This document shows, in pieces, positions 46,669-56,874 of a DNA stretch of 58,049 bases. The DNA comes from Candidatus Woesearchaeota archaeon. GTDB lineage: Archaea > Nanobdellota > Nanobdellia > Woesearchaeales > UBA10216. Every line of letters begins with the position of its first letter. Position 1 is the first letter of the stretch. The translations under genes were made by a program, and so were the position numbers. The notes under the pieces are model-generated. The model was not told the origin of the DNA, did not search any database, and was given only the letters and a program-made list of their open reading frames with translations. The stretch lies in NCBI GenBank assembly GCA_016192915.1, contig JACPTF010000015.1, positions 1 through 58,049 of the forward strand. Direction: 5' to 3'.

Positions 46669-46740
46669 CATGACCCTTTTCGCAAAAGGGTCAATCCAAA
46701 AACGGATAAGCCCTTTGCTAAAAAGGTCTATCAAAAACGT
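46669..46740. repeat. two tandem GACC hairpins upstream of psmA
   Basis: Copy one 46669-46705: perfect stem TGACCCTTTT/AAAAGGGTCA with loop CGC, then ATCCAAAAACGG. Copy two 46706-46740 is a diverged version with the same order (AAGCCCTTT, GCTAAAAAGGTCT, ATCAAAAACG). Same family as the hairpins at 49949-50036 and 55180-55220. Confidence 0.7.
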
Positions 46741-49133: not shown

Positions 49134-49874
49134 TCATGCGACATTCTTAAACTTCCCAAAATGATAAGTCTTATCCCCAACAACAAAAACATCAAATCTG
49201 CTGAGGTTCTGCTGCATGAAAGGGCTTATGAACTTCTCCTTGAGGATATCAGTGCCTATTGTTACCTGGTTGAATGAGGGCATCACAATCATCTTCTTGC
49301 CCTTCCACTTTCCAAGCAGGAAGCACTTGTAAAGCTCTGTTCTGGCTCCGTCCCTCAGCGAGACTGCCGGGTGCTCGTTTCCGACAATAACTATTATTGA
49401 CTTTTTGAACTCACTGCTTGACGGAACAACATGGCCGTGGCAGATGAACATGTCGTTGATGGCGACGTTTTCCACAACAACGATGTTTCTTTTTCTAGCA
49501 ATTGGCGCTAATTTTATGTCGTGGTTGCCCTTCACAAGTATGACCTGCTCGGAATGCTGCAGAAGAAAATCAAGGAATTTCAAGATGTCACGCCACTCCT
49601 GCTCAGAAATGGTGCCAAAGTCATGCTTCAGGTCGCCGTTTACAACTACGGCTTCTAATTTCTCGTTTTTTAGATGCGGTTGCACCGATGAAAAAATCTT
49701 CTCTAGCCTTTCAATCGTGTCCTTGAACTGGAATCTCGGGAGGAAAATGCCCTGCTTGCTCATCGCATCCTCGTAGCCGAGGTGCACGTCGCCTATCACA
49801 AGGATGTTCTCATTTTTGAGGTAAAGGGCAAGGTCGGCTATTTCAATGCCTGGAAGGATTTCAACAAGTGTCAT
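49134..49874 (-). CDS. ICC-like metallophosphoesterase paired with Lhr
   Basis: About 246 residues. Calcineurin-like metal sites: VIGDVHLGYED, VVVNGDLKHDFG, LVKGNHDIKL, and ICHGHVVPSS. Matches the COG1407 group commonly encoded near Lhr helicases. The upstream in-frame extension crosses the hairpin element at 49949-50036 and is not used; ATG at 49874 starts TLVEILPG. Likely a nuclease or phosphodiesterase in DNA repair. Confidence 0.85.
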   Translation of the reverse strand: MTLVEILPGIEIADLALYLKNENILVIGDVHLGYEDAMSKQGIFLPRFQFKDTIERLEKIFSSVQPHLKNEKLEAVVVNGDLKHDFGTISEQEWRDILKFLDFLLQHSEQVILVKGNHDIKLAPIARKRNIVVVENVAINDMFICHGHVVPSSSEFKKSIIVIVGNEHPAVSLRDGARTELYKCFLLGKWKGKKMIVMPSFNQVTIGTDILKEKFISPFMQQNLSRFDVFVVGDKTYHFGKFKNVA

Positions 49875-49921: not shown

Positions 49922-49948
49922 CTAACCAAAACTCTCCGGCAACTCCAT
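49922..49948 (-). pseudogene. recoded copy of the last codons of the neighbouring zinc-protein gene
   Basis: Encodes MELPESFG and TAG, the same end as the gene at 50038-50469, from which it is separated by an 88-base hairpin element. Seven base differences between the copies, all synonymous. It has no start of its own in frame with the gene. Confidence 0.75.
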
Positions 49949-50036
49949 CATGACCCCTTTGCGAACCCAAGTCGAGCATAGCTCGACTGGGCCCAGTCGC
50001 AACAGCGACTTGGGAGCGGTCAATCGGAAAACGAAA
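49949..50036. mobile_element. nested hairpin element (GACC hairpin with inserted hairpin pair)
   Basis: Outer arms TGACCCCTTTGCGAA (49951-49965) and AGCGGTCA (50015-50022), followed by ATCGGAAAACGAAAA as in the copy at 55180. Between the arms lies a 49-base hairpin pair, 49966-50014, with CCCA/TGGG clamps, one bulged A in the first hairpin and one bulged T in the second. Confidence 0.75.
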
Positions 50037-50037
50037 A

Positions 50038-50469
50038 CTATCCGAAACTTTCAGGAAGTTCCATCTCGCCAAGGCTGCATCGCTGGCAGATAGTGCCCTC
50101 CAGGCTAAGGCCTTTCAGCTTTAGAACCTTGAACGGCCTGCCGCAATTGGCACAGGTAATAATGACCTGTTCCAGCGTGGGAACCTCGTCTGCTGCCTTC
50201 CTAAATTGAGATGGGGCGGCTACGACCGAGGGCTTTGACTGCCCGACAGCGTGAGGCTTGTGCAGTCGTTGGAGTGACCTTCCAGACTTAGCAGACTTTG
50301 CAGTCTTTCTGGATGCCTTAGAAACATGTGACTTTCTAATTCCAGCCTTACGTGCCTTATGCACCTTACGATGTTTCCTGCCGGAACGGGTTCCAGAACG
50401 TGCTGAAGAACGGGCAGAAGAACGGCCTGCTCTTCCCTTTTTAGCCTTAGCGTGCTTCCTCATCGTCAT
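50038..50469 (-). CDS. basic protein with C-terminal zinc knuckle
   Basis: About 143 residues. The N-terminal 90 are Arg/Ser/Lys-rich repeats (SSARSSARSGTRSGRKHRK), followed by a four-Cys module: CANCGRPFKVLKLK and CQRCSLGEMELPESFG. Likely binds nucleic acid. ATG at 50469 (or 50463); the upstream part of the frame is intergenic. TATA TTTAAATAG about 25 bases upstream. Its last eight codons recur in recoded form at 49922-49948. Confidence 0.65.
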   Translation of the reverse strand: MTMRKHAKAKKGRAGRSSARSSARSGTRSGRKHRKVHKARKAGIRKSHVSKASRKTAKSAKSGRSLQRLHKPHAVGQSKPSVVAAPSQFRKAADEVPTLEQVIITCANCGRPFKVLKLKGLSLEGTICQRCSLGEMELPESFG

Positions 50470-55155: not shown

Positions 55156-55182
55156 TCAGCGGAACGGCTTATCCTTCATCAT
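55156..55182 (-). pseudogene. recoded copy of the last codons of the surface-protein gene
   Basis: Encodes MMKDKPFR and TGA, identical in protein to the end of the gene at 55231-56874, with six base differences, all synonymous including the stop. It is separated from the gene by a GACC hairpin (55180-55220). Confidence 0.75.
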
Positions 55183-55220
55183 GACCCCTTTTGCGAAAAG
55201 CGGTCAATCGGAAAAACGAA
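55180..55220. mobile_element. GACC hairpin element
   Basis: Arms around the loop GCG: TGACCCCTTTT (55182-55192) and AAAAGCGGTCA (55196-55206), with one C-C mismatch, then ATCGGAAAAACGAA. Same family as 46669-46740 and 49949-50036; here without a nested insert. Confidence 0.75.
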
Positions 55221-55230
55221 TATTAAAAGG

Positions 55231-56874
55231 TTATCTAAACGGCTTGTCTTTCATCATATCGCGAACGAATTTCTGGGCGTTGGGATCGTTCCTCAAGCTG
55301 GCAGGCTTTTCAGGCTGCCTCTGCAGCTGCTGCTTCCTCTTTTCCTCAATAATGCGCCTAATCCTCTCCTCTTCAAGAAGCTGAGCAGTGGCAACCTGCT
55401 GGCTCTGGCCTTTATCACCACTGCTGCCACTGCTGCCAAAATCAGCACTTCCAAAACTGCTGCCATCGCTTCTGCCGCTTCGGCTGCCTTGGTTACCGCC
55501 GCCACTTTTACGGTTCTTCACAAAAAAGAAGGTTACCATGCCAATTATCACCAACAGAAGCAGCGGTGCAAACTTGACCTGAACCTTGCCAGAACCGGTG
55601 CTTGTGACCTTAACTGCCCTGCCTGTCAGACCAAGGAAATCAGACGTCTTCTTAATGAGGGGCCTGTCATCAGGAACAAAGACGTTCTCAACCACAGCAG
55701 AGTTCGCAACTGTGGGAAAATCTACAGAGTATGTACCTTCGGAAACCTTGTTAGTCAAGTCAACTTCAAACACCTGGCCGGGAGCAAGCTCAACATCCTG
55801 CACTATGACGTAGCTTTTCGTCGCCCCAGAAAGGCTTATATTGAACGACTTTGCATAGTTCACGTTGCCGATATTCCTCAAAACAACAGTCCTGTTGTTG
55901 AAGCTCACGGCTGCTTCCTCAACCTCCTCAACCACTAGCGGGCTGCTTTCATTCAAGCCAAGCGCTGAGAAGGTAACTGTGTAGCGACCGGGCTTTTGCC
56001 CAGCCGGAAAAGCAAATGTGACATTAAAGCCCGTATCGTTGGATGCTGACAGGACGACAGCGCCTGTTTCATCTGTCACTGCAAATTCAACTGATGACTT
56101 CATAAAATCGCCAGCCTGGTCATAAACAACAGCGGAAACATCAAAAGGCTGCTGCGGCTTGACACTCTGCTGGCTAAGGGCAGGCACCAGCCTTGTTGGA
56201 ACTGCCTCAACCGCAAACACCCCAGAAACCGAGCCTGAGTTGCCGTAGGAATCGTTAACAAGGAAATCAAGCGCATGCCTGCCAGACCTAATGCTCTTCG
56301 AAAGCTTTATGCTATAAGCAAAAGAGTTATTCACCACATTTGACGTGTAATCGGTTTCAAGGAACCTCATCATTACCTTTGCAGGAAACTCATGGCTTTT
56401 CCCAACAAGGCCTGAGACCTCAACAGACTCTGCCGGAAGATAGAAAACCTTGTCCGTATCAACGGCAACAGACAAAGCGTTGGTAACGTTAAAGAAACCG
56501 GATACACCGCTCTCGTTAACAGCCTTATCGTAAGAGGTTGCGTTCGCAGCAACATAGCACCTTCCGAGCATTGCAGGGGATACGCTTAAAGGAGGAACAG
56601 TAACCTCCTGCCTCGCGCCAGCGAAGATGTTAGTTGGCAGGGTGTAAAAGTCAAGGTCAAAATTGTGGCAGAACAGTGAGAGCTTCATAAGGCCGCTGAA
56701 GTCCTGGTCCCTTGAAAAAGCATAGTTCAAGACAATCTCATCCCCAAAGTTATAAACGCCCTTATCGGTTGTTATGGCGAGCTCAGCAGAAACTGAAAAA
56801 GCTCCAGCCAAAAGCGCAACAGCAACCCAGATAAAGAGAAACGCCTTGAGAGGAATGCACCTTATTTTAGCCAT
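55231..56874 (-). CDS. single-pass surface protein with Ig-like/MG-type domains
   Basis: About 547 residues. Signal peptide (FLFIWVAVALLAGAFSVSA), then beta domains with ITTDKGVYNFGDEIVL and TDKVFYLPAESVEVSG, as in macroglobulin or bacterial Ig-like folds. LGLTGRAVKV precedes a membrane helix (LLLLVIIGMVTFFFV). A Ser/Gly-rich linker and a basic helix end in MMKDKPFR. TATA (AAATATTTAAG) places the transcription start close to the ATG at 56874. Confidence 0.65.
   Translation of the reverse strand: MAKIRCIPLKAFLFIWVAVALLAGAFSVSAELAITTDKGVYNFGDEIVLNYAFSRDQDFSGLMKLSLFCHNFDLDFYTLPTNIFAGARQEVTVPPLSVSPAMLGRCYVAANATSYDKAVNESGVSGFFNVTNALSVAVDTDKVFYLPAESVEVSGLVGKSHEFPAKVMMRFLETDYTSNVVNNSFAYSIKLSKSIRSGRHALDFLVNDSYGNSGSVSGVFAVEAVPTRLVPALSQQSVKPQQPFDVSAVVYDQAGDFMKSSVEFAVTDETGAVVLSASNDTGFNVTFAFPAGQKPGRYTVTFSALGLNESSPLVVEEVEEAAVSFNNRTVVLRNIGNVNYAKSFNISLSGATKSYVIVQDVELAPGQVFEVDLTNKVSEGTYSVDFPTVANSAVVENVFVPDDRPLIKKTSDFLGLTGRAVKVTSTGSGKVQVKFAPLLLLVIIGMVTFFFVKNRKSGGGNQGSRSGRSDGSSFGSADFGSSGSSGDKGQSQQVATAQLLEEERIRRIIEEKRKQQLQRQPEKPASLRNDPNAQKFVRDMMKDKPFR

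Follow-up and report, generated by a model that had tools for sequence, protein, structure and literature searches.

In fungal mitochondria, mobile open reading frames (mORFs) carry the 3′ end of a foreign gene, as described for atp6 of Allomyces and for atp6, atp9, cox2 and nad3 of Glomus (PMC3630166). In these cases, the incoming C-terminal sequence is inserted in phase, and the native one is displaced beyond the element, where it is the copy closest to that of related organisms (PMC3630166). The two termini differ mostly at synonymous positions, and transfer between species has been inferred from such genes (PMC3630166). The mORFs encode an endonuclease of the LAGLIDADG or GIY-YIG type and measure from hundreds of bases to approximately 1 kb (PMC3630166). 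Integration into the 3′ end of a gene is also known for SSV1, which uses a tRNA-Arg gene (summarised in PMC3293823). Here, we describe a 36-nt element, E, for which mORFs are, judged by analogy, the closest precedent, closer than phage-type integration. As in mORFs, the replacement terminus is in frame, the native terminus is displaced and the differences between them are mostly synonymous. Unlike mORFs, E has neither an ORF nor a homing endonuclease, resides in archaeal chromosomes and is also associated with replaced gene starts.

Other described systems share some of these characteristics. For instance, e14 reportedly integrates into icd, bringing a replacement gene end and displacing the old one. 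E resembles such phage or island integration in both respects but differs from it in the lack of an integrase, the lack of a fixed core that is identical everywhere, the use of gene starts and its very small size. REP, BIME and REPIN sequences, together with other small palindromic repeats, are, like E, short dispersed hairpins with nested and tandem copies. By contrast with REPs and REPINs, E has a link with displaced termini of genes, a feature that to our knowledge has not been reported for REPs, and the genome studied here (G000) has no match to the Y1/RAYT transposase family (PF01797), one being present in 5 of the 20 searched genomes. Additionally, mitochondrial double-hairpin elements (DHEs) and Rickettsia palindromic elements may be compared: the repeat N, which is nested in E at the locus described below, resembles DHEs, and single copies of E and N lie in frame inside genes, a likeness at the level of description; the hosts differ from those of both comparators.

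Two doubled gene ends in one window

The window, that is, the whole stretch of DNA analysed, comprises positions 1 to 58,049 of contig JACPTF010000015.1 of Candidatus Woesearchaeota archaeon (GCA_016192915.1). Site A includes the following features:

50038..50469, minus strand: gene of a basic zinc-ribbon protein (MTMRKHAKAKKGRAG...CQRCSLGEMELPESFG and stop), with a replaced 3′ end (ORF listing; the start ATG is our choice)
50038..50064, minus strand: proximal, functional (replacement) copy of MELPESFG and stop (sequence comparison)
49950..50034, minus strand: element E (TCGTTTTCCGATTGACCGCT...TTCGCAAAGGGGTCAT), 36 nt, split by N (match of covariance model R1)
49966..50014, strand unassigned: nested repeat N, a 49-nt double hairpin (CCCAAGTCG..CGACT-GGGCCC-AGTCG..CGACTTGGG; genome matches)
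49922..49948, minus strand: distal, displaced native end, MELPESFG and stop (3′ flank and likeness to G004)
49134..49874, minus strand: downstream metallophosphoesterase gene, used as anchor for the orthologous locus (Pfam PF00149, 8.5e-11)

The zinc-ribbon protein has no Pfam match, and its orthologues in G001, G003, G004 and G007 have the common end CQRCSLGEME(L/M)PESFG. On the minus strand, the proximal copy (50064-50038) reads ATG GAA CTT CCT GAA AGT TTC GGA TAG and the distal copy (49948-49922) reads ATG GAG TTG CCG GAG AGT TTT GGT TAG. A preliminary description of this DNA had reported that the last eight residues and the stop codon are encoded twice with seven base changes, all of them synonymous, and this is confirmed (7 of 27 bases, 7/7 synonymous; peptide match score 47, the 99th percentile of mispaired flanks being 32). 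The two copies are separated by a 3-nt spacer (TTT) followed by an 85-nt element, and folding of the DNA between them predicts a markedly stable hairpin (z = -5.7 for DNA folding). The 88-base hairpin element of the preliminary description is composite, consisting of E with N nested in its stem plus the spacer.

The downstream phosphoesterase gene, which has a match in 49 of 59 genomes, was used to locate the orthologous loci in relatives. In three congeners without E at this position, the gene end directly adjoins a short intergenic region (G007, ...GGATAATTCAGCAACCAATTTATACC; G004, ...GGTTAGGCGTTTTCTCAGCAACCAATTTATACC; G003, ...GGGTAGCTGCGCAGCAACCAATAAATA). In the window, GCATTTTCTCAGCAACCAATTTATACC follows the distal copy and not the proximal one, and the 3′ flank of the distal copy, GCATTTTCTCAGCAACCAATTTATAC, lies directly 3′ of the gene end in the congeners lacking E (GCGTTTTCTCAGCAACCAATTTATAC in G004). 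As the displaced copy of mORFs is closest to that of relatives, so the distal copy has only 3 differences from G004 in 27 positions, with a downstream flank that also matches, whereas the proximal copy has 8 in 27 and finds its nearest counterparts in G007 and in the proximal copy of G005 (4/27 differences each). Since the congeners without E join the gene end to the flank of the distal copy, this alignment of loci shows the distal copy to be the native end of site A and the insert to be the proximal terminus plus E. The native order seen in G003, G004 and G007, a comparison with hairpin-less relatives that had been proposed beforehand, bears out the claim that a replacement end was brought in and the old end displaced. 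No donor allele was found for the proximal end, and the part of the gene that precedes the junction shows no clear switch of affinity.

E is also present at the same gene in G005 (L062), with its own synonymous pair of PESFG and stop. Upstream of the junction, this gene is shortened and frame-shifted, the zinc ribbon is absent (L033:397-640), and the sequence jumps from a basic region like that of G004 to GGTGCAGC...TAG-E. The jump agrees with a short incoming piece, although it may also derive from misassembly or from a deletion that came afterwards.

Site B, an independent case in the same window, lies at the end of a 558-aa gene:

55231..55254, minus strand: functional end of the 558-aa gene, MKDKPFR and stop (sequence comparison)
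55181..55218, minus strand: element E, 38 nt, uninterrupted (R1 match, 52 bits)
55156..55179, minus strand: displaced end, ATG AAG GAT AAG CCG TTC CGC TGA, MKDKPFR and stop (sequence comparison)

Its two copies have six base differences, 6/6 synonymous. In G001, the locus of site B exists in two forms, L103 (contig C114) and L113 (contig C6), one of them with an extra membrane-protein gene and a tRNA between the 558-aa gene and the Lhr helicase, so this assembly mixes strains.

The element family and its insertion sites

Element E (TCGTTTTCCGATTGACCGCTTTCGCAAAGGGGTCAT) has no ORF, and there is no room for one in the insert. A covariance model with a lax threshold gave approximately 285 matches in eight genomes of one Woesearchaeota genus, and a search for close relatives of the query copy was positive for 6 of these 8 genomes, whereas 12 genomes from outside the genus yielded none. 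The congeners named here are groundwater Candidatus Woesearchaeota metagenome-assembled genomes (MAGs). Comparison of copies indicates that paired positions of the stem change together (31 double-change cells vs 5.8 in shuffles, 98.5% paired), in an alignment that was itself fitted to the structure and is, consequently, biased in favour of a hairpin. A genome search with N gave 34 matches at E<=0.001; N is nested in the stem of E at site A and occupies an identical or a different position in other copies of E.

Both flanks were tested at 179 E sites. A working terminus, E and a displaced terminus were found, in that arrangement, at 10 of them, in six genomes and eight genes:

Window: sites A and B
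G005: L062 (the site A gene)
G001: L082, L171, L182 and L255
G007, G002 and G006: L073, L166 and L191, respectively

In nine of the ten, the right end of E (GGTCAT) is followed by the displaced copy with no base in between; in the remaining one, that of G005, the DNA alignment is below threshold and the reading frame places the displaced copy at this same end. The working gene lies to the left of E in all ten. Five are gene 3′ ends, and the other five (L073, L166, L171, L191 and L255) are gene starts, where E is antisense to the gene. The replacement terminus is in frame with the resident gene, with the exception of the zinc-protein gene of G005. L073 and L166 are one gene in two species, with an identical junction and differing E subfamilies. 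At L182 (640-850), three tandem 53-bp units follow each other at the end of one gene, each with the last codons YRFFD and stop plus a copy of E with an identical 17-nt repeat, apparently a result of repeated insertion at one junction. Taken together, the aligned sites show the insertion of a terminus with E, the displacement of the native terminus and a fixed right end of E.

No target sequence common to E sites was found beyond a leading G. Additionally, no duplication was detected at approximately 169 of the 179 sites, one of which lies in the window:

46670..46705, minus strand: further copy of E, upstream of a proteasome-like gene, without detected duplication (R1 match, 37.3 bits)

As most E sites show no duplication, E would also arrive by other routes, an example being the copy in the CTP synthase gene of G006 described below.

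Divergence of the paired termini and its possible origins

In the ten pairs, 34 differences fall in synonymous codons vs 8 that are non-synonymous. Free drift of the displaced copy predicts 32% synonymous differences, and the observed 34/42 (P = 8e-11) rules out drift of a non-coding duplicate, in line with the earlier argument that drift should not have spared the protein. For sites A, A-G005 and B alone, 19/19 differences are synonymous. None of the displaced copies has lost its frame, the displaced start codon of L191 being two codons upstream (MKRKKYLVTGGTGFI), and the copies of L166 have differences at 1/27 coding positions vs approximately 5/11 in the adjoining non-coding part. The prevalence of synonymous differences, the intact displaced frames and the contrast within L166 show statistically, at the level of sequence, that each copy was still coding, in a functional gene, during their divergence, which preceded their meeting. 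The copies of L171, L255, L182 and L073 are nearly identical, and these cases could by themselves be explained by a simple duplication of the target.

We consider it probable, although by no means certain, that E, as a short, gene-less and dispersed hairpin element, can enter a gene close to its start or its stop and does so joined, as one unit, to a replacement terminus from the orthologue of a related species or strain. In every case, the product would be, in order, the working gene, the replacement terminus, E, the displaced native terminus and the native flank. The pattern of differences points to transfer between related lineages, in which case recombination between lineages would have brought both copies together. 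The gene side would be joined by sequence homology, and on the other side the fixed right end of E, one base beyond the base of the hairpin, would be joined within the terminal codons of the recipient. The most likely route, which is speculative, is that a donor strand is trimmed back to the E hairpin and pairs with the gene of the recipient over the coding sequence common to both, after which ligation at the end of the hairpin might leave the terminus of the recipient outside. Insertion would be tolerated because the gene is restored. All of this evidence comes from MAGs, of which at least one assembly (G001) contains two strains.

A more conventional possibility, which we regard as unlikely, is that E is an ordinary small insertion element with a variable target-site duplication of 15-41 nt, the copies being identical at insertion and drifting later. 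E is directly flanked by the duplications, several pairs are identical or nearly so, and the tandem copies of L182, each with its 17-nt repeat, would agree with such an element. Nevertheless, the synonymous differences, both in the three sites mentioned above and overall, strongly disfavour duplication followed by drift, as do the varying length of the duplication and the finding that 0/179 sites show a non-coding duplication of this kind. An explanation of similarly low probability invokes a tyrosine recombinase, as in phages or integrons, with a small circle whose attP is a gene end plus E recombining with the chromosomal gene end. A reconstituted gene end followed by a displaced one is the classic product of such a reaction; moreover, tyrosine recombinases are present in 8/8 genomes, an identical junction was used in G007 and G002, and the first six bases of diverged pairs agree at approximately 27/30 positions vs approximately 69% elsewhere (our own count). 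These six bases are identical at sites A and B but not in G005 or L191, so 2/5 diverged cases lack a crossover core of strict identity. Furthermore, the insert is a terminus plus E (with or without N), the recombinase found throughout the genus is probably of the chromosomal XerA type, and every E would require a gene-specific attP when there is no common attB beyond the leading G. The preliminary description had favoured phage-type integration into gene 3′ ends and suggested looking for integrase genes; with none in the insert, tyrosine recombinases only elsewhere in each genome, and half of the cases at gene starts, that proposal is not upheld.

The same description had named recombination between strains as an alternative. 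Plain homologous recombination, one strain carrying E and the chimeric junctions arising without any special property of E, is in our opinion very improbable. It would account for copies that stem from diverged lineages, and two strain versions of one locus do coexist in the G001 assembly; however, ordinary homologous exchange replaces a terminus and does not duplicate it, and the exact start of the duplication at the right end of E is left unexplained. Still harder to sustain is an assembly artefact, in which the repeated E would have joined two strain variants. Repeats and strain mixture in MAG data make such errors conceivable, but the junction between E and the displaced end requires overlapping sequence in some real genome, and misassembly is hardly credible because the same architecture and exact element boundary recur in six assemblies at eight genes, twice within 6 kb in G000.

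Returning to entry as a unit with a replacement terminus, E might represent a previously undescribed class of gene-less archaeal mobile hairpins of 36 nt, which would spread between species with a recoded terminus of the invaded gene, at starts and ends alike, so that insertion is harmless and the old terminus is a fossil of the transfer. We propose this class tentatively, as a serious possibility that falls a little short of being probable. If correct, the spare terminus that accompanies so short a hairpin makes its invasion of gene ends free of cost, and every displaced terminus is a record of transfer between lineages. A principle known from fungal mitochondria, where it is tied to homing endonucleases, would then extend to ORF-less elements in cellular chromosomes and provide a readable marker of gene flow among uncultured DPANN archaea.

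Several candidates for the machinery behind E were rejected. An IS200/IS605 Y1 transposase as its mover and a reverse transcriptase acting through an RNA route both lack a match in G000, reverse transcriptases being present in 3/8 genomes. ComEC was found in no member of the genus, and viral contigs contain no exact-pattern match to E. TnpB elements are present in G000 and G001, and some copies of E abut their left ends, but the sequence of E is not that of a TnpB end.

Copies of E and N beside TnpB, tRNA and other genes

The TnpB elements (L290, L291 and L292; L071, L074, L080 and L287) have a common left end, CACTGGACACTGGACATGTGCCCGGC, and several copies of E directly adjoin it on its left side, whether a TnpB gene is present or not. 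In other loci, the right end of E adjoins the 5′ end of a mature tRNA with zero bases between them (L064:1501-1636, L081:1500-1665, L170:1145-1301 and L199:549-700), as judged from Rfam tRNA matches that begin at the base after E; L063, L069, L075 and L091 look alike by sequence.

Copies of E and N also occur within tRNA genes (L148:666-775; L066, approximately 1500-1540; and the tRNA region of L103, on contig C114 of G001), where they apparently sit as introns, D-loop and T-loop positions included. ARAGORN reported no tRNA at the E-flanked tRNA loci, whereas Rfam found several, and the intragenic D-loop and T-loop positions go unrecognised by the former.

Finally, both repeats can be found in frame in protein-coding genes. 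In G006 (L068:1460-1560), a CTP synthase gene contains the 36-nt E within its N-terminal region (SRFPIDRFRKGVM) and gains 12 residues from it, and in L017 (approximately 2000-2050) a nuclease-like gene carries, as read by eye, an in-frame insertion of N (QN-PNRAGTIGPSRSSDLG-DDKDKYGR).
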